NCBI GenBank assembly: GCA_011364905.1
Contig: RDNZ01000009.1
Span: forward strand, 1 to 64,000
Direction of reading: 5' to 3'
DNA length: 64,000 nt
From: Candidatus Thorarchaeota archaeon
GTDB lineage: Archaea; Asgardarchaeota; Thorarchaeia; Thorarchaeales; Thorarchaeaceae
Below the pieces are notes generated by a model that was not told the DNA's origin, ran no database searches, and was given only the letters and a program-made list of their open reading frames with translations. Below, in pieces: positions 34,396 to 43,996 of this stretch; the stretch's first letter is position 1, and each line of letters opens with the position of its first letter. Both the position numbers and the translations under genes were made by a program.

Positions 34396-34505
34396 GAGTA
34401 AACCTCGATGTTCTTTCTAGGTCCGGAGCTTGATTTAGTGTTTGCTGTCGGTGGCACTCATAGACGATATTGTCATAAGTGTTGGAAGAACATTCTCAAT
34501 CAACC

Positions 34506-35456
34506 ATGGCGTCATCTGAGATTATTCCTGGAATCCACGTAGTAAGGGGCAAGTTTGCAGGCGAGTTTGGATTCATAGCCAGTTACCTAGTAGTAGACTC
34601 AGGAGAGGTTCTTGTTCTTGACCCAGGGACTGCTGGTGATCCTGGAGACCGACTTGAAAAGGCAATTCGGAACTTGGGACTTGATCCTAAGAACGACGTG
34701 GTGGGAATTCTCTGCACCCACGGTCATCCTGATCATGCAGCTGGTGCTGGCCGTCTGAAAAGAGCAACTGGTGCTCCTATACTGATTCATCAAGACGATG
34801 CAGAGCTTCTTCAAACTCCAGCTAAGTTTCTTAATGAACGACTTATGATGGACAAGGCCGAACGGTTTTCAATGAAGTTCGACAAAGGACCGCTCAGAGT
34901 CAATTATCGAGGAGTAGAAGCTGATGAGCTTATTACTCATGGCCAGAATGTCCCGGTAGGCGAAACAAATCTAAAGGTAATTCATACAGGTGGCCATTCA
35001 GCTGGTCACTGTGCCTTCTATGACGCAACAAGCAAGTCTTTGTTCTCAGGAGATGAAGTGAACAACTTTCCCAATGATTCTCGCAAGTTCTATGTTGATA
35101 ATACAGGGAGCATTGTTTCGAAGCTAGCCGCCCTGGACGTTTTATCAAAACTTGGAGCTGATTATCTCTTCCCATCTCATGATACACCGCACCTTTTCGC
35201 AGATGTCCGTCTTCAGTTTGAGGCTGCGAGAGATGGAGTTGTGCATCTTCAAGACACATTACTAACTCTTCTGAGCGCAAGGGGTGAAGCTGATGTTGAA
35301 CAACTGGTTTTTGACATGAAGCAGGCACGAAGTGTTCCCATCCCAGAGAGTTATGATGCTCTAGTCACGACAACCACATATGTGACACTTATGGGACTAA
35401 AGGAAGCTGGATTGATACGTGAGCTTGGAAATGGCATCTGGACCAAAGTTGGATAG
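34506..35456 (+). CDS. Metallo-beta-lactamase-fold hydrolase
   Basis: About 316 residues from ATG 34506 (a TTG at 34479 is in frame). The metal-binding THGHPDHAAG motif, a late HTGGHSAGHC and the SGDEVNNFP region give the two-metal site. A helical C-terminal extension (LLSARGEADVEQLVF to LKEAGLIRELG), in the manner of a winged helix, follows the catalytic domain. Such enzymes include glyoxalase II-like and LACTB2-like proteins. The substrate is unknown. Confidence 0.87.
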   Translation: MASSEIIPGIHVVRGKFAGEFGFIASYLVVDSGEVLVLDPGTAGDPGDRLEKAIRNLGLDPKNDVVGILCTHGHPDHAAGAGRLKRATGAPILIHQDDAELLQTPAKFLNERLMMDKAERFSMKFDKGPLRVNYRGVEADELITHGQNVPVGETNLKVIHTGGHSAGHCAFYDATSKSLFSGDEVNNFPNDSRKFYVDNTGSIVSKLAALDVLSKLGADYLFPSHDTPHLFADVRLQFEAARDGVVHLQDTLLTLLSARGEADVEQLVFDMKQARSVPIPESYDALVTTTTYVTLMGLKEAGLIRELGNGIWTKVG

Positions 35457-35538: not shown

Positions 35539-38217
35539 ATGTCTGATAGAAGAGATGCGCAAGCACCAAGCACGGTTGAAGCCATTCGAATGGCATCTGC
35601 ATCCGTATTAGGGACATCAACAGGGCTTGGTTATCCGGTTGGAAGCGCAATTGGCGCTGGTACAATGCTTGAACAGCATTCTGAGTCTGTTTCCATGAAC
35701 ATCGTACCATTGATCTTCAATATCCGTGATACTCTAATGTCATCAGAAGGATTGGAACTTCTCTCAATAGAATATGACCTTGATAGAACTCCGGGTCCGG
35801 AAGTACTTCCTGAACAACTGGTCATAGCTGGAGGTGTCGAAGGCGGAGTCGGTTCTCATGTCTGTGTCCTAAGCTGGGAGAAAGGAGTTGTTGATCCTTT
35901 CAAGATCAATGATTACATGAAGGTCCTGTCCAAAAAGATTGCAGACATAGAAAGTGCTGTGATTAACAATCAGCTGAACTATGAATTTGAAGGTCTCCCA
36001 GTCATGAGTAATTTTGCACACCGCCTAAACAGTGTCTTGTTTGTCGACATGCTTGACCGTCGATTTCAGGGGTCTTGGGATTCCTTGCAGGTAAAGCCGG
36101 ATCATGTCGATATTGACCTAATTGCCAAAATGGCTGTCACTGATGATTTTACACTCCAGCCTCCGGGGCTCAGAGTTGTTGGACGAAAGACCCTTGAGTT
36201 CAAGCTTCCAAACGAGCCAGATGAACGACTTGTCGCTCACTTTAAACGACGTATTTTGACACCGAGTGCCATAGAAACTTTGACCAAGGTTGTTCCCGAA
36301 ACCGGTCAAGCTCTTCTGCAGGAACTCAACTATTACGCCTATGCTACGGAGGAGTCAGAAATTGTAGATGGCGTTGTAAGTGCACTAGGCTCTTTTCTCG
36401 GTCAGACTATGGTGTCACTAGCTGATATCGACTCTCTCAAACCTCGCATTAACGAGTTTGTAAAGATACTTGAAGAAACCGTTAACGAACTTGAGCATAT
36501 AGTTGAGAACCACCTTGGTTCAGGGAAATCACTCACGATTGATAACCACAGGAGTGAACTGATTTCTGCTGTTTCATCACACAGTGAACTGTCCTCTGGC
36601 ATAAAGAACACTCTTGCCATGGGGATAGTTGAACGATTAATGAATTCAGTTTCTCGAGAGTTCAGTGGACACGGGGAAATCCGTGCTTGGGAACTGAAAG
36701 GAACCCTGAGGTATGCTATTGCCTATGCCAAAAGAGTCTCTCAATATTTCTCGAGGGAGCTAAACCAATACCTTGTTACGAATGCCGCAAAGAAGGCATT
36801 CTTCACTGCTCTTCAAGATTTTAAAAATGAAACAGTCGGGGGGGACATTAGTTCCACTGACATGACATTATTCGATCTCTTCTATGCTGAAGTCCAAGCT
36901 CAGCTTAACGCAGCCTTCGCCAAGGAAGCATTTGAGGGATCTGAGTATCGCGACTTCAAACAATTAATGGATGTCGTGACTCGACAACTGATAGAATCGT
37001 TCAAGACAATCGACATATGGGAGCTTATTGGGTTTGAGAAAGTAGCTGAAATTGCTGGATCTGAGATTCGACAGAAATATTCGATTCCAGAGAGCGAAGA
37101 ACTAACAGAGCATGGTAAAGCTCTGATAGTCCTTCTTGACAACTTCCAGGAACTGGTAGCTGATGTCATTCCTGATGTTGCTGACACTCTTCTTTCAAAA
37201 CCATTAATCCGTCGAATTATCGACAAGATGTTATCAGAACAGACTAGTCTAATACCTGAACTTGAAGCCGCAGTTGAAGGTGCAGGAGAGCGCCCTGATG
37301 AATGGAAAAAAGAAGCAATGGCTTGGGTTGCGAGCTTCAAAAGTGGCCTGAACGAATCGATGACAAGTTCTCAAGCTCTTCTTGCTTTATTGAATTCAAT
37401 TCATGAGATTGTTGGAGAAACAGTGACCCCGAGTGCTATGGTGGATCGCGCCAAGTTTGAAGCTGACCAGCGAGAGCAGATGTTCCTCGCAAAGGTACAG
37501 GAGTGGGAGGAGGTATGTCGGGTTCTTGAGGGTGAAAACGAAGCCATTAGGGCCCACAATGCAAAACGCGAGGAACTACTCACCGAGAAGACTCAGCAGT
37601 ATGAAGCAAAAATGCGTGAATATGAAACTGCACTCAGGGACTATATGGAAAAACTGGAGAAGTACAAAGCTGAGCAAGCTGAGCTGGCTGCCCAAGCCGC
37701 ACAAGCTGCTGAAGTTGCAGAATCACCAATTCCGTCCACTCCGCCACCAGTTGTTACATCATCTCCTCCTCCAGTAGAACCTTCAAAACCTTCGCCCATA
37801 GATGCAGAGTTGGCTGAGATTCGGGCGCAATACCCCGTGAAAGAAGAAAAACCACTGCCTCCTAAACCAGAACCTGATCCCTCACTCAAGTTCTTTGTTG
37901 AATTGCGAGACCTGTTGCAGGGTAGACTCGATCAATTGAGGGAACGAGAGAAAGACATGGAAACGACATTTGCACGAAGGGTTCTAAGACTTCAAGCTGA
38001 AGGAATTGGTGCAGCTTCAATGATTGGACTCGATATAGGTGATGAGTTCGTGGAATACCTCATGGGTTCAAAAGTTCGGAGTCTTGGAAAGTTACTTCCT
38101 CGGGTTGCACGCATGTATCTCAGAGACCCACAAGAAGAGGGATTACTGTACCTTGTAACATTTGAACACCATGCAGGCGAGTTGACTGTATCAGTAGGGA
38201 ACACATACTTGAGGTGA
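35539..38217 (+). CDS. Very large helical/coiled-coil protein, unknown (892 aa)
   Basis: 892 residues, ATG 35539 with AGGGAGAGG upstream. An N-terminal region of ~200 residues has mixed structure (a Gly-rich AGGVEGGVGSHV loop). A long all-helical body follows, then a charged coiled coil (about 640-720), an Ala/Pro-rich linker with SPPPV repeats and a C-terminal helical domain. No enzymatic motif, signal peptide or membrane helix was seen. It is followed at once by the 816-residue gene, so the two are one operon and probably form a complex. Confidence 0.7.
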   Translation: MSDRRDAQAPSTVEAIRMASASVLGTSTGLGYPVGSAIGAGTMLEQHSESVSMNIVPLIFNIRDTLMSSEGLELLSIEYDLDRTPGPEVLPEQLVIAGGVEGGVGSHVCVLSWEKGVVDPFKINDYMKVLSKKIADIESAVINNQLNYEFEGLPVMSNFAHRLNSVLFVDMLDRRFQGSWDSLQVKPDHVDIDLIAKMAVTDDFTLQPPGLRVVGRKTLEFKLPNEPDERLVAHFKRRILTPSAIETLTKVVPETGQALLQELNYYAYATEESEIVDGVVSALGSFLGQTMVSLADIDSLKPRINEFVKILEETVNELEHIVENHLGSGKSLTIDNHRSELISAVSSHSELSSGIKNTLAMGIVERLMNSVSREFSGHGEIRAWELKGTLRYAIAYAKRVSQYFSRELNQYLVTNAAKKAFFTALQDFKNETVGGDISSTDMTLFDLFYAEVQAQLNAAFAKEAFEGSEYRDFKQLMDVVTRQLIESFKTIDIWELIGFEKVAEIAGSEIRQKYSIPESEELTEHGKALIVLLDNFQELVADVIPDVADTLLSKPLIRRIIDKMLSEQTSLIPELEAAVEGAGERPDEWKKEAMAWVASFKSGLNESMTSSQALLALLNSIHEIVGETVTPSAMVDRAKFEADQREQMFLAKVQEWEEVCRVLEGENEAIRAHNAKREELLTEKTQQYEAKMREYETALRDYMEKLEKYKAEQAELAAQAAQAAEVAESPIPSTPPPVVTSSPPPVEPSKPSPIDAELAEIRAQYPVKEEKPLPPKPEPDPSLKFFVELRDLLQGRLDQLREREKDMETTFARRVLRLQAEGIGAASMIGLDIGDEFVEYLMGSKVRSLGKLLPRVARMYLRDPQEEGLLYLVTFEHHAGELTVSVGNTYLR

Positions 38218-38223
38218 TTGACA

Positions 38224-40671
38224 ATGGCTAGCTCCTGGGTACTAAAGACAAGACAAATGAGTGAAGCTGGAAAAGAAATTCTGCTTCGAGAGGCTTTAGC
38301 TTCGCACATGCGCAGCACTAGAGACCGTCAGTTATTTCAGGAACTTCTCAAGGAAAACAGGCCCCTTAAAGATATGTTCTCATTCTTTGCAGCCTTCTAT
38401 TTACACAGTTATCAGGGTGTTCGTCTCCTAACGCCTTCTATGGAGCCTGGCGCGGGTAGTGAGATGAAAGATGAGCTTGGCGAAGAAGAACGGCATCAGC
38501 TTGAGCTTGAGGTTCGACAGCTTTTTTCTGAGAAACAACATCAAGAGGTTGAAGTGGCGAAACTTGCTAGTGATTTAACAATTCGTTTCATCGATGAACT
38601 AGGAGGGTCCGACAAGTCGCCACAACATAAAGAGAAAATTATTGATATGATACGGCAGACTCTGAGCCAGATTCCTACGACATACACACCAAATCATGAC
38701 ATTGACTTGATGCTTGAAGTCACTGGTTGGGGCGAGAACTGGCGCAATGAGTTATACGTTAAGGCCTCTGGACTGAAAGAGAGTGCGCTCTCTCTAAGGG
38801 AGGAGCTACTTAGAGAGCACCCCTACGAAGTCCCAGAAACATCCGTACTTCGTATGGGCCTTGAAACCATACTTGGACGTGTGGAGTATGTTCAAGGACG
38901 ACTTGCCGAAGCTCTCATTCCAGCAAATAGCTGGGATGCAATCGTTTCTGCAGTTTCGGAAAGATTTTGCAGACCAATGGGCTCTCTCAAAGGACTCAGA
39001 TATGCTCATGAGATACGTCTTGCTATGCTAGAAGCACTCATAGCTGAGTTTGATACCCCCACAACTTTAGAGGGCTTTGAGTCCCTGTTGGGCCGCGTAG
39101 TGACCACAAAAGCGGCGAAAATTCTAGTGGAAGATCCTGACCACATACTCGATACACTCTCTAGCTTTCTCAACGTGAGTGCAGATGAGATCAAAGCTCA
39201 ACTTCGACGTAAAGGCATCAGTGATCTATCAGTTATTGGGCCAGGCTTAGAGGCGTTGACCGAAGACTCTGTTTCCGACTCATCCAAGCCAGAAATCAGT
39301 AAAGAAGAGTTTGAGATGCTGGAGCGTTCTCTAAAGACTCTCGAAAAGATCGAAAGAACTCTTGATGGTCCAGTAAAAGGGATGCTTCGCTCAAAGGGTC
39401 TTCGAGCAACAGAACTTGAAAAAATAGACATCAATATGTTCACAAAGGATCGTGCAAAACTTGTTGGCATTGAAGTCGAAGTTCTAGAGGCCATAAAGGC
39501 AAAGTTGCGGGTTCCACCGCCAGAGGAAATAGCACGACTTCTAAAGACTAGAGAGCAAGTTCAAAGTGGCGCATTGAGTTCACTGGGCATCTCGTCAGCG
39601 AGAGATTTCAGCCAACAAAGAGCTGAGGAGGAAACTGCTGTAAGTTTACGCCTTGACCTCATCTGGCACTTCACTATAGGCATACTCACGAATCTAACTC
39701 GCGTTGTTGAGTCCTACATTCGGTCAAAACAAGACTTGTTACGTATCAAAGCACTGCTGAAAAGTATCTATGAAGACACAGAGATGGTTCTACAATTTCT
39801 CCGGGAGGAAATACTAATCGACTTGGCATCCATGCGAATCTACGAACTCAAAGTCCTTTACCCCGAATTAGATGCTAAGACAATATGTACTTGGATGCAT
39901 GCCAGGCTCTCTAGTAAAGGTATGAATACTGCAGGAGACGACCTCGAAACCTCAACAAGCCCAGTCTTTGAAGGCATCGTTGACAAATCGTTAGACATGT
40001 CAAATTTGGAGTATGATAATTATGCGATTGCTTTTGACATTATGCAACGTTTCTTGAAACAAGAACGGCTAGAGAAGCTGGCAAAGGAAGAATATGCGCT
40101 TGAAGCTAAAGAAAAAGAGAAGCGTAGGATTGAGGAAAAGAAGGAAGGTATCGATGTTTTGATGTACCTTCATAATAAGGCTCGGACTGTCTTTCGAGCA
40201 ATCAGTCGGGTTGGCACTAAGGGTCTCGAATGGACCCATAATGACACAACCAAGTGTACCAATCTTCTTTCTTACTATATCAAGACCAATAGAGGAAGAA
40301 AAATCTGTTCTGCATGCGGATCCCTACCGAAGGATGGAAAATGCGCTCAACACGGATCGAACTTCATCAAGGATGCATCAGATATGGACAATCTGTCTAT
40401 CTTTATCATGCAGAGTCTTTTTGAAATCAAAGAAGGATTGATCGGAGAAGGTAGAGGGGTTGAGCCAATGTCATGGGACAAAGCGAAATCCACTGTTGAG
40501 CGAGAGATTGGAGTTCTGAAAAGAAGAGGAAAACTGACATCCAAGACTAACCTAAAGGAACTGATGCCCGGAGAGATCAATTACATTGTTGGTCCTGCAA
40601 TGTCCGCTATTGTTGCTAAGTACTTCAACGAGTCATTGGGTTACGCCGCACGTCGGGCTGAAATAGCGTAG
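38224..40671 (+). CDS. Very large helical protein with Cys/His knuckle (816 aa)
   Basis: About 815 residues from ATG 38224, which has GAGGTGA 8 nt upstream; TTG 38218 abuts the previous stop. Nearly all-helical, with a long charged coil before the C-terminus (LAKEEYALEAKEKEKRRIEE) and a short CSACGSLPKDGKCAQHG zinc-knuckle-like element around residue 700. No known family recognised. Spacing of six bases from the 892-residue gene suggests the products act together. Confidence 0.7.
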   Translation: MASSWVLKTRQMSEAGKEILLREALASHMRSTRDRQLFQELLKENRPLKDMFSFFAAFYLHSYQGVRLLTPSMEPGAGSEMKDELGEEERHQLELEVRQLFSEKQHQEVEVAKLASDLTIRFIDELGGSDKSPQHKEKIIDMIRQTLSQIPTTYTPNHDIDLMLEVTGWGENWRNELYVKASGLKESALSLREELLREHPYEVPETSVLRMGLETILGRVEYVQGRLAEALIPANSWDAIVSAVSERFCRPMGSLKGLRYAHEIRLAMLEALIAEFDTPTTLEGFESLLGRVVTTKAAKILVEDPDHILDTLSSFLNVSADEIKAQLRRKGISDLSVIGPGLEALTEDSVSDSSKPEISKEEFEMLERSLKTLEKIERTLDGPVKGMLRSKGLRATELEKIDINMFTKDRAKLVGIEVEVLEAIKAKLRVPPPEEIARLLKTREQVQSGALSSLGISSARDFSQQRAEEETAVSLRLDLIWHFTIGILTNLTRVVESYIRSKQDLLRIKALLKSIYEDTEMVLQFLREEILIDLASMRIYELKVLYPELDAKTICTWMHARLSSKGMNTAGDDLETSTSPVFEGIVDKSLDMSNLEYDNYAIAFDIMQRFLKQERLEKLAKEEYALEAKEKEKRRIEEKKEGIDVLMYLHNKARTVFRAISRVGTKGLEWTHNDTTKCTNLLSYYIKTNRGRKICSACGSLPKDGKCAQHGSNFIKDASDMDNLSIFIMQSLFEIKEGLIGEGRGVEPMSWDKAKSTVEREIGVLKRRGKLTSKTNLKELMPGEINYIVGPAMSAIVAKYFNESLGYAARRAEIA

Positions 40672-40679
40672 TTGATTGA

Positions 40680-41000
40680 TTACACACTCTTAGTCGTTTC
40701 AGTTATCCAGTCCAGATAGTCCTTAGCCCCCTTTTCGACTCTTAAAACGACATACTCCGGAACCTCATAGGGGTGGATTCTCTTTATGACTTCCTCCAGA
40801 CTTGAAGCTAGGTCTGCCTTTGTTTTCATTACTAGTAACGCTTCATTATCAGTCACAATCTCACCCTTCCAGTGATAGATGCTTTTGACTGATGGAATGA
40901 TATTAACACAAGCACAGACTTTGGCTTCAACTAATACTCGAGCTAGGTTTTGTGCCACTTCGATAGGACAAGTTGTAATGGCAACGATGAAATCCGACAT
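40680..41000 (-). CDS. cutA: CutA1-family divalent-cation tolerance protein
   Basis: 106 residues. The family sequence is clear: ITTCPIEVAQNLARVLVEAKVCACVNIIP, then YHWKGEI and a C-terminal YVVLRVEKGAKDYLDWI. CutA forms very stable trimers related to PII proteins and is widespread; its role in metal tolerance is established only in bacteria. Confidence 0.93.
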   Translation of the reverse strand: MSDFIVAITTCPIEVAQNLARVLVEAKVCACVNIIPSVKSIYHWKGEIVTDNEALLVMKTKADLASSLEEVIKRIHPYEVPEYVVLRVEKGAKDYLDWITETTKSV

Positions 41001-41045: not shown

Positions 41046-42515
41046 ATGCAGACCAATGGAATTAGCAAATCGAAGGCCATTTATACCCACTATCAATCCC
41101 GAGCCCTTGGTGATTCTTTGAAGAAGTTCAAACCAGAAGGAGTAATGCCTGCCCTAGTAACACCATTCACGCGAGATGGCGACATCAATGAGGAGGGCTT
41201 TAAACAAGTCATTGACTACACCATTGAGAAAGGCGCGACTGGTGTGGTAGCTCTAGGTACGACTGGTGAGTTCTCATACTTGAGGACAGAAGAACGGAAG
41301 AAGATACTAAGACTCACTGAGAAGTATGTAGATGGAAGAGTACCTATCATTGCAGGAACAGGTCAAAACAGCACTCGTGCGACCTTGGCACTCACACAGT
41401 TCGCCGCAGATTTGGGGTGTGATGCGGCACTCGTAATCTCGCCGTACTATCTACGACCAACGGACAAAGGGTACTATGAGCACTATGAGGAAATTGCTAC
41501 CAAGGGAAATATCCCAGTTATCCTATACAATATACCACAATGCACCCTTGGAGTTCTTAATTCGAATGTCGTCGAGGACCTAGCGTTTTTGGATAATATT
41601 GTTGGCATCAAAGACAGTAGCGGAAGTGTGCCCTACATTCTTGAACTGATTCAAAAGCTCAAGGGGAAAATGGAGGTCATTATTGGAGCCGATGAGTGCT
41701 TCCTCTCTGCGATAGTGGCTGGCTCAAAAGCTGCGATCATGGCTTCAGCGAATGTGATTCCACATATTTGGCTTGAAATCATGAGATTGGCGCAAAGCGG
41801 GAAAGTCGAGGAAGCCGCTGAGCTCCAGCGTACTACTCAAACTTTTGCCCGAATGGTTTTGAAGTATGGGGCTGCTCCGCCGGTTAAAGCAGCATTGAAA
41901 ATGATAGGTTTGGACGCAGGTCGTGCCAGAATGCCCCTTAATAGCGGCGGGACTCTTACACCTGAGATGAAAGAAGAGATACGAATTGAGTTAGAGAAGA
42001 TGGGTGTCATTCCGAAATTGGAACATCCTCCGGTTCAGACAAATATCGATGTGATTGAGTTCCTTGCTAGTCAGGGGTTAATGCTAGAGCAGACTCCGGA
42101 CATTTCTGTCAGTAGCGCTGCAAACGAGAAGGTGTCCGTTGGTGTTGCCGTTGGCTCTAAGAAGGGGCCAGTTGGTCGGACATTTGTAAGACTGCTCACA
42201 GTACCGAAGGTTGGCCATGAAGCTCTGACCGTCATTCTTGAGCCAAACCTGGCTGTTAAGCCTAGTAGTCTTATGCTTCCAGTACAGAAAATACAGTCCA
42301 TGCGCCAAGCATCTTTGTTCTATGGGCCGGTTCAGTCTGGTGCTGCCAAAGCAATTTCATCGTTCTTGGAAGCGAATAAGATACCAGAAAAATCGGTTGT
42401 TGATGATTTGATCATTCTAACTCTAGATATTGACTTGAATTCGAGCGACCGCCGCGAGATTACAGCTGCGGCTCAACAAGCTGTTGAAGAAGCGCTACAT
42501 GGAATTTGGGGGTGA
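41046..42515 (+). CDS. Aldolase (NAL superfamily)-Fae fusion protein, Fae His missing
   Basis: 489 residues from ATG 41046, which would be leaderless behind TATA-like CATATA (~41020); TTG 41118 (LKKFKPEG) is a sound alternative. Residues ~28-320 are a DapA/N-acetylneuraminate-lyase-type barrel with GTTGE (71-75), Tyr161 (YNIP) and Schiff-base Lys189 (GIKDSSG). The DHDPS Arg in YNVPxR is absent (YNIPQC). Residues ~360-489 form a formaldehyde-activating-enzyme domain (GSKKGPVG, ILEPNLAVKPSSLM, FYGPVQSGAAKAI). Its catalytic His position is Ser364 and the C-terminal tail is short. Operon with the next gene. Confidence 0.82.
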   Translation: MQTNGISKSKAIYTHYQSRALGDSLKKFKPEGVMPALVTPFTRDGDINEEGFKQVIDYTIEKGATGVVALGTTGEFSYLRTEERKKILRLTEKYVDGRVPIIAGTGQNSTRATLALTQFAADLGCDAALVISPYYLRPTDKGYYEHYEEIATKGNIPVILYNIPQCTLGVLNSNVVEDLAFLDNIVGIKDSSGSVPYILELIQKLKGKMEVIIGADECFLSAIVAGSKAAIMASANVIPHIWLEIMRLAQSGKVEEAAELQRTTQTFARMVLKYGAAPPVKAALKMIGLDAGRARMPLNSGGTLTPEMKEEIRIELEKMGVIPKLEHPPVQTNIDVIEFLASQGLMLEQTPDISVSSAANEKVSVGVAVGSKKGPVGRTFVRLLTVPKVGHEALTVILEPNLAVKPSSLMLPVQKIQSMRQASLFYGPVQSGAAKAISSFLEANKIPEKSVVDDLIILTLDIDLNSSDRREITAAAQQAVEEALHGIWG

Positions 42516-42520
42516 ATCAA

Positions 42521-43996
42521 GTGACTAGCGAATTTCGATTCAAAGGCGTCTATCCCGCTCTTGTGACACCATTTGATAAGAATGGGGTTAATGAAAAGCA
42601 ATATCGCAATCTCATAGATTTCACGATTAAAAATGGCGCTACTGGGATAGTCCCTTGCGGAACTACAGGTGAGTTCACGAGCATGCGATTCGAGGAAAAA
42701 GAAGAGGCTATCCGTATCGCGTGTAAAGCCGCAAAGGGTAGAGTTCCAGTGCTTGCGGGAACAGGTCATGCGTATACCAACGATGCTATCAAACTAACTC
42801 GCAGAGCCGCTGAGTTTGGAGCCGCTGCGGCTCTCGTGGTCACTCCTTATTTCATGAAGCCATCCGAGAAGGAGATCTACGAACATTTCGAAAAAATCGC
42901 AAATAATAGTGATATTCCAATTATCGTTTACAACATCCCTCAGGTGACTGGTGTTCCTTTACATTGGACTTTGATTGATGGTCTCAGAGAAATTGATGGA
43001 ATTGTGGGCCTAAAAGATTCAAGTGGTGATCTAGTCAATTTAACAACGATTCTTGTACGTAAGCCTGATAATTTCCAAGTCATGGTCGGTCACGACGAGG
43101 TGGCCTTGCCAGCTTTGGCATCAGGCTGCAATGGTGCTATCCTTGCAAGCGCCAATGTTTTTCCTGACCGGTATATCAGGATGCAGAGTGCGCTTGCTAC
43201 AGGCGATCTAAAAGAAGCTCGTATCATTCAGCGAAGCATTCAGAAAATTGTACGCATCTTTGTGAATAATGGTGGTGGTCTAGCCGTTAAGGCTGCACTA
43301 AACATGATGGGTGTACCAGTAGGCAATGCAAGACATCCACTTCTCATCGGAGATAGCCTCGGATATGAAATGCATGATGAGATTCGGACTTGTCTTGAAG
43401 ACCTCCAAATGATTCCACGTGGATTTGTCACTTTCAAGATGGGCAACCGATATATTGAGAGTGAGACCTATCCCAAAGCAGTAGGCATGGTCCCGGATGT
43501 CGTTGAAGACTTGACTCTTTTGCATGGAGAAGCCCTCTTTGGCGGAGGCAATGATGTGGCACATGTGGATTTGATCATGGGCTTGCGTTCTGGTCCTATG
43601 AGTGATGCATTGAAGACTGCTGGAAAAGTGACTGAAGGCTTTCACCAATCGAACATAATCAAAGAACTTGAGCTGACCACTATATTTGCACCCACTGTAA
43701 CAATCACATCAGAAAGACACCGAAAGATGGTCTATGAAGTAGCTCAACGTGCAGTCGAAGACGCTGTAAGACGGACAATCACTGACAATATTATCCCCGA
43801 GGAACTTGTTCGAGACCTTGTAATTGCAGCGAATGTTTTTGTTCATCCAAGTGCTGTAAACAAAACTCGCGTTCATATTAACAACTTCATCGCAGTCCGA
43901 CATGCCCTTCGAAGAGCCATTGAGGGACGTCAGAGTGTGGAGGAAATAATTGCTAGAAAGGACTCGGCGAGACATCCATTTGCCTATAATCCCTAG
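42521..43996 (+). CDS. Aldolase (NAL superfamily)-Fae fusion protein, Fae His intact
   Basis: 491 residues from GTG 42521, which has GGGGGTGA 5-6 nt upstream; TTG 42506 and GTG 42512 are in frame and would overlap the previous stop. The barrel domain has CGTTGEF, YNIPQV (Tyr137) and GLKDSSG (Lys165), again without the DHDPS Arg. The C-terminal ~160 residues are a full-length Fae domain: FGGGNDVAHVDLIMG with catalytic His348, LVIAANVFVHPSA, and the canonical end KDSARHPFAY. The Fae substrate loop region before KMVYEVAQ diverges. Likely partner of the upstream paralogue. Confidence 0.87.
   Translation: MTSEFRFKGVYPALVTPFDKNGVNEKQYRNLIDFTIKNGATGIVPCGTTGEFTSMRFEEKEEAIRIACKAAKGRVPVLAGTGHAYTNDAIKLTRRAAEFGAAAALVVTPYFMKPSEKEIYEHFEKIANNSDIPIIVYNIPQVTGVPLHWTLIDGLREIDGIVGLKDSSGDLVNLTTILVRKPDNFQVMVGHDEVALPALASGCNGAILASANVFPDRYIRMQSALATGDLKEARIIQRSIQKIVRIFVNNGGGLAVKAALNMMGVPVGNARHPLLIGDSLGYEMHDEIRTCLEDLQMIPRGFVTFKMGNRYIESETYPKAVGMVPDVVEDLTLLHGEALFGGGNDVAHVDLIMGLRSGPMSDALKTAGKVTEGFHQSNIIKELELTTIFAPTVTITSERHRKMVYEVAQRAVEDAVRRTITDNIIPEELVRDLVIAANVFVHPSAVNKTRVHINNFIAVRHALRRAIEGRQSVEEIIARKDSARHPFAYNP

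Follow-up and report, generated by a model that had tools for sequence, protein, structure and literature searches.

Tandem aldolase-Fae fusions with complementary losses in their Fae domains in a Thorarchaeota genome, and their possible role in hydroxymethyl transfer to pyruvate

The joining of Fae to a formaldehyde-handling, aldolase-type barrel is known from Fae-Hps (NF009833), the tetrahydromethanopterin (H4MPT) hydro-lyase/3-hexulose-6-phosphate synthase, and Fae itself is a pentamer in which the pterin is bound between subunits. We analyzed a 64,000-nucleotide stretch of the Candidatus Thorarchaeota contig RDNZ01000009.1 (the window), in which two tandem open reading frames (ORFs), ORF1 (copy A) and ORF2 (copy B), likewise join Fae to an aldolase barrel; the fusion pair is real, conserved and unusual, and constitutes a variant of the known joining. 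Compared with Fae-Hps, the order is reversed, with Fae at the C-terminal side, the barrel is of the DHDPS instead of the OMPdecase/HUMPS type, Lys66, which we take to be a pterin contact of Fae, has disappeared from almost every fusion, and the window has two complementary copies. The Methylobacterium Fae (PDB 1y5y/1y60) is homologous to the Fae domains of ORF2 (E 3.2e-19) and ORF1 (E 9.8e-10), but ORF1 lacks its His17 strand and C-terminus, ORF2 lacks its PNLxxKP loop, and both are aldolase-fused. The barrel, the Schiff-base Lys and Tyr133 are held in common with DapA, the YagE-type 2-keto-3-deoxygluconate (KDG) aldolase and NanA, with structure matches in the barrel only; the window proteins differ from all three in their fusion to Fae, and from DapA also in the lack of Arg138. 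Fae-Hps in Asgard archaea is mentioned in PMC7495880 and PMC11291895, and no mention of an aldolase-Fae fusion was found in the accessible parts of these two papers or of PMC5020050, PMC9931769 and PMC10307638. Likewise, no published description of such a fusion was found in the accessible portion of the literature, which did not extend to bioRxiv preprints or to the majority of journals behind a subscription.

The original prediction, made from the window alone, held that both genes join a barrel of the N-acetylneuraminate lyase superfamily to Fae, and the Pfam profile search bore this out. The DHDPS profile PF00701 (cut-off 22.1) matched ORF1 and ORF2 with 257.7 and 259 bits and the Fae profile PF08714 (cut-off 27) with 93.8 and 102.4 bits, scores so far above the cut-offs that the matches are not due to chance, while the HUMPS/OMPdecase profile PF00215 was absent from both ORFs in the same search. 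The Fae equivalog domain profile TIGR03126 (cut-off 118.05) was not reached by ORF1 (81.7) or ORF2 (112.9) and was passed by the single aldolase-Fae fusions of relatives (194.5, 209.1 and 169.5). The two copies were the sole Fae matches in the window's genome (80.8% complete), and the relatives found in named records (L052-L054) were Candidatus Thorarchaeota metagenome-assembled genomes, whose copy B showed 86-91% identity.

The two Fae domains were aligned with the Methylobacterium enzyme (1y5y) and the Fae-Hps of relatives, using the site numbers His17, Asp19, Leu48, Lys66, Thr68 and Gln83, which we presume to be those of the described site and whose letters and spacing match 1y5y; His17 is taken here to be the catalytic residue. 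In copy A, the His17/Asp19 strand and the C-terminal end are gone and LEPNLxxKP and Gln83 are retained, while copy B has retained GEAL...AHVDL and the HPFA end and carries a deletion across PNLxxKP. This split was consistent throughout the window's family: His17 was absent and the PNLx[VI][KR]P loop present in 22/22 copies A, and His17 and Asp19 were present and the loop absent in 17/17 copies B (counted after removal of identical ends), and a separate motif count, in which repeats were removed differently, gave 29/29 and 16/16. The original prediction had treated both copies as complete Fae, which proved incorrect, since each is without a different part of the site; whether copy A is served by a catalytic His17 would depend on its acting in concert with copy B.

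The same A/B split was observed in the tandem pair (L071) of another family, f6, where f2 and the like denote the family labels of our genome search and f1 is the window's own family. In the Fae tree, f6A joined A (97/94) and f6B joined B (100/96), and in the barrel tree f6A joined A (93/91) on a long branch, the placement of f6B being poorly supported; the A/B split of the Fae domain thus predates the separation of f1 from f6. A and B do not adjoin each other in the Fae tree. The proportion of nonsynonymous differences (pN) was far below that of synonymous differences (pS) in all four domains of the pair, the Fae domain of copy A among them (pN 0.186 vs pS 0.678 against L053), so that purifying selection acts on A as well as on B. 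Decay of the copy A Fae domain into a pseudogene was ruled out by its conservation and by pN far below pS. The complementary loss, the age of the split and the purifying selection thus make a hetero-oligomer with composite Fae sites likely, and, with the pterin of the Fae pentamer lying between subunits, such an assembly of A and B would be the simplest reading.

A Fae match was found in 152/227 genomes of the phylum, and, among 14 control genomes outside it, only in two methanogens. In the window's family, 43/47 genomes were represented among the matches listed, namely by two matches in 42 and by one, at a contig end, in G004; no match in this family was stronger than E 1e-36, so that neither an ordinary Fae nor a Fae-Hps was encountered in it. 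Outside this family, most Fae-bearing genomes had a strong match of Fae-Hps size, so that Fae-Hps is common among them, and its domain content was checked in L003 and L057, where HUMPS/OMPdecase (PF00215) was present. Many of these genomes also had a second ORF of ~500 residues, the single aldolase-Fae fusion, which occurred in f2, f5, f9, f13, f16, f22 and f27. The H4MPT enzyme Mch was found in 42/46 genomes of the window's family, indicating that H4MPT metabolism is present there.

The strongest functional clue came from gene neighborhood, first that of the single fusions, of which 47 places outside f1 and f6 were among the matches listed. A gene family of ~428 residues, designated C1, lay directly upstream of the fusion on the same strand in 38/47 of these places, and another of ~315 residues, C6, adjoined it in 4/47 (two on the same strand and two divergent); the remainder comprised three incomplete ORFs (G141, G142 and G121) and two unlinked cases in f13. 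C1 also adjoined the f22 fusion of L123, which lies outside the 47 places. Among 225 genomes of the phylum, C1 was present in 126 and C6 in 12. In seven Fae-less C1 loci read, where the gene names rest on single members of each cluster, an aspartate-aminotransferase-like gene adjoined C1 in five (L120, L121, L124, L126 and L133; not in L125 or L134), and homoserine dehydrogenase was near C1 in three. Outside f2, 34 genomes held both C1 and homoserine dehydrogenase; by coordinates, the two lay within 10 kb of each other in 24 of them, all 24 being without a Fae match, and were far apart in one and on different contigs in nine. C1 is therefore coupled either to homoserine dehydrogenase and an aminotransferase or to the aldolase-Fae fusion, and 4-hydroxy-2-oxobutanoate (HOB) is the metabolite that, judging from this neighborhood, both contexts could share.

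The fusion and homoserine dehydrogenase were in turn negatively associated. Homoserine dehydrogenase was found in 2/46 genomes of the window's family versus 14/14 controls. In Fae-bearing genomes of other families with a completeness of at least 90%, it was found in 12/38 with the fusion versus 24/27 without (p 3.8e-6), and without the completeness filter in 18/58 versus 33/51 (p 5e-4). In f2 alone, the filtered counts were 9/29 and 12/13. In these comparisons, fusion status was drawn from how many Fae matches a genome had and from their E-values, and not gene by gene; for instance, G120 (<90% complete) was scored fusion-free, and a fusion-type barrel is cut by the contig end beside its C6 (L137). 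The search for homoserine dehydrogenase covered 225 of the 227 genomes, so that up to two may be misbooked as lacking the gene. The scarcity of homoserine dehydrogenase alongside the fusion fits formation of HOB and homoserine at least as well as cleavage.

On these grounds we propose, tentatively and with somewhat less than even confidence, that the two genes constitute one system for hydroxymethyl transfer between methylene-H4MPT and pyruvate, with HOB exchanging with homoserine. The barrel would bind pyruvate as a Schiff base and add or remove formaldehyde (pyruvate + HCHO <-> HOB), the Fae part would interconvert HCHO plus H4MPT with methylene-H4MPT, and the linked domains would pass on the one-carbon unit without free formaldehyde, giving the net reaction CH2=H4MPT + pyruvate <-> HOB + H4MPT, after which an aminotransferase could interconvert HOB and homoserine. 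The logic of hydroxymethyl transfer would be comparable to that of serine and ketopantoate hydroxymethyltransferase. Where a relative has just one gene, its fused chain would perform the whole reaction by itself, while Thorarchaeota and one other family would use two interdependent copies, each contributing its own portion of the Fae site to the subunit interface. We infer the substrate, the hetero-oligomer, the channelling and the direction, in which formation of HOB and homoserine is slightly favored.

Several observations, concerning the Fae site, the gene neighborhood, the barrel and homoserine metabolism, weigh against this proposal. Lys66, retained in Fae-Hps, is Val in ORF1 and Thr in ORF2, variable among copies A, Thr in copies B and Thr in the single fusions read except the f22 sequence L123, a loss that may mean that H4MPT binding is altered or that the Fae reaction is altered or lost. 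In the Fae tree, copy B grouped with the f2 single fusions (90/87), away from A. The A-B pair adjoined C1 in none of the loci read in the window's family, and a search of the window's own genome, which is incomplete, revealed no C1. In addition, triosephosphate isomerase directly follows the f6 pair (L071), and a UDP-sugar dehydrogenase lies near the fusion, on the opposite strand, in four f2 loci. These two neighbors, the loss of Lys66 in nearly all fusions and of His17 in copy A, and the G-[HWA]-D-E motif of the barrel, which in alignment resembles the GYDE of NanA, would suit an aldolase for another substrate, of the 2-keto-3-deoxy sugar acid or sialic-acid type, with the Fae-derived part acting as an oligomerization module or pterin sensor instead of a formaldehyde enzyme. 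We nevertheless consider such an aldolase rather unlikely, as copy B and those single fusions whose sequence spans the site (f2, f5, f9, f13, f16, f22 and f27) retain His17 and Asp19, the complementary loss points to a site held in common and not to a scaffold, and the commonest neighbor, C1, is elsewhere tied to homoserine dehydrogenase.

As for the barrel, the alignment upheld the Schiff-base Lys, Tyr and GTTGE that had been read in both genes, as well as the absence of the DapA Arg, replaced by Cys in ORF1 and by Val in ORF2. The position of Arg138, presumably the binder of the aspartate-semialdehyde carboxylate in DapA, was never Arg in any aligned fusion, and that of Tyr107 was Phe in copy B and Tyr in the window's copy A. 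Nevertheless, both barrels passed the NCBIfam dapA profile TIGR00674 (229.3 and 241.6 vs 206.15), and the DapA YNxPxR motif was absent from all 10 unfused DHDPS-like genes read in eight genomes of the family, including the sole one found in the window's own genome, so that no ordinary DapA was seen among them. One such unfused protein (L152:5362-6258, G000 contig 36) has the Schiff-base Lys and no YNxP motif, and similar proteins occurred in 7/9 other loci read. A lysine-pathway DapA that has gained a Fae domain nonetheless appears improbable in view of the missing Arg138 and the Phe at Tyr107 in copy B, and it would leave the presence of a Fae domain in lysine synthesis unexplained. A further difficulty for the proposed aldolase chemistry is one copy B (L019:523-1971) having Ser for the Schiff-base Lys and ASLGE for GTTGE, with His17 kept in its Fae part, the sole one of 12 aligned copies B without these two barrel features. 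The structure models of the window proteins had predicted local distance difference test (pLDDT) scores of 64.6 and 72.3, and the structure matches listed for them covered the barrel only, none reaching the Fae part.

With respect to homoserine metabolism, the association with homoserine dehydrogenase was weak in f2 alone without the filter (15/41 vs 13/22, p 0.11), and all the p values ignore kinship. Furthermore, homoserine kinase (TIGR00191, over cut-off) was found in 0/46 genomes of the window's family and in 14/225 of the phylum, none of them in f1 or f2. This scarcity weakens a threonine purpose, and synthesis of threonine from fusion-made homoserine via ThrB is unsupported. It also means that there is no obvious demand for homoserine as a biosynthetic precursor, which would suit the same chemistry run catabolically, with homoserine-derived HOB cleaved to pyruvate and formaldehyde and the latter caught as methylene-H4MPT. 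The domain and context evidence is identical for this direction, and the homoserine dehydrogenase and aminotransferase genes near C1 in Fae-less genomes could be consumers of HOB; however, the homoserine dehydrogenase mostly missing alongside the fusion fits the replacement of a homoserine source better than degradation, and we regard the catabolic direction as rather unlikely. Of the cleavage of HOB put forward in the original prediction, the HOB chemistry fits the single-fusion neighborhood, while for the direction the homoserine dehydrogenase pattern fits formation at least equally.

The coordinates of the pair are summarized in Table 1. The true start of ORF2 is probably GTG 42521, and ORF1 may start later than annotated, for example at TTG 41118. 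The putative ribosome-binding site lies 6-13 bases before this in-frame GTG, across the stop of copy A, and such an overlap suggests that A and B are probably translated together.

Table 1. Features of the aldolase-Fae gene pair in the window
Feature	Position	Strand	Basis
ORF1, copy A, aldolase-Fae fusion, 489 aa	41046..42515	+	ORF calling, Pfam
Copy A DHDPS/NAL-family barrel; Lys, Tyr133 and GTTGE kept, DapA Arg138 -> Cys	41133..41984	+	alignment
Degenerate Fae domain of copy A; without the His17/Asp19 strand and the C-terminus, retains the LEPNLAVKP loop and Gln83	42120..42500	+	alignment
GGGGGTGA, putative ribosome-binding site of copy B, extending over the copy A stop codon	42508..42515	+	sequence; function inferred
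ORF2, copy B, aldolase-Fae fusion, 496 aa counted from TTG	42506..43996	+	ORF calling, Pfam
Copy B DHDPS/NAL-family barrel; DapA Arg138 -> Val, Tyr107 -> Phe	42539..43345	+	alignment
Fae domain of copy B; retains GEAL..AHVDL (His17, Asp19) and the HPFA end, lacks the PNLxxKP loop, has Thr for Lys66	43526..43981	+	alignment

Upstream of the pair, two large adjacent genes on the plus strand (35539-38217 and 38218-40671; 892 and 817 residues) were conserved in five loci including the window; their products gave no convincing NCBIfam match, and the second contains a Cys-rich CSACG..CAQHG stretch. Between them and copy A lies a CutA-like gene on the minus strand (40680-41000; NF041095, 105.3 bits vs cut-off 120), found at the same position in four loci including the window. 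Further upstream, an MBL-fold hydrolase is encoded on the plus strand (34479-35456), a relative of which lies directly upstream of copy A in L074; comparison of this gene with C6 revealed no relation.

The C1 family (L058:4752-6059 and relatives) was highly conserved across its members, and had no Pfam match to E 0.001, no NCBIfam match to E 0.1 and no PDB sequence match to E 1, with weak and inconsistent matches when Pfam was searched to E 10; no C1 relatives were found in viral contigs. C6 gave one weak Peptidase_U32 match (E 0.0065, 2/5 members) and no PDB match. The hhalign probability between C1 and C6 was 9.5 with few sequences and 53 with more (E 1.4e-4), which is only suggestive of kinship, and in f13 C1 (L122:4556-5869) and C6 (L136, ~4469) filled the same slot between the same neighbors. 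In L134, a distant DHDPS-type gene lies directly upstream of C1; it was not counted as an orthologue of the fusion on account of its mere 22% identity to the first fusion in the alignment. Among seven C1 loci from the family of the window, an ECF-type (energy-coupling factor) transporter component was upstream in 7/7, the one member examined scoring below its cut-offs, and a threonine-synthase cluster was near in 4/7, one member of which scored 194.1 against 167.1 for TIGR00260. Nitroreductase-type genes were near the fusion in six loci, and a CitG-type gene in three f9 loci.

The same reactions as proposed here, from pyruvate and formaldehyde via HOB to homoserine, have been built in E. coli as a synthetic homoserine cycle (He et al., in review PMC8879981), the accessible text of which describes E. 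coli enzymes (RhmA) that are promiscuous and use formaldehyde itself as substrate, and terms HOB non-native in the engineered pathway, while a natural, dedicated fusion is proposed here. The most far-reaching form of our proposal, in which a natural formaldehyde-channelled HOB/homoserine route replaces homoserine dehydrogenase in Asgard archaea, A and B form an obligate oligomer with composite Fae sites and C1 acts on HOB, is in its entirety doubtful. To our knowledge, the HOB/homoserine route is known only as an engineered pathway. The division of a Fae site between tandem paralogues is rare. If the proposal is true, the pair would offer a clear case of two paralogues retaining opposite halves of one active site, and the fusions would represent a natural version of the engineered pathway, would newly connect amino-acid metabolism with the H4MPT one-carbon pool in archaeal relatives of eukaryotes, and would provide a possible reason for the absence of homoserine dehydrogenase from many of these genomes.

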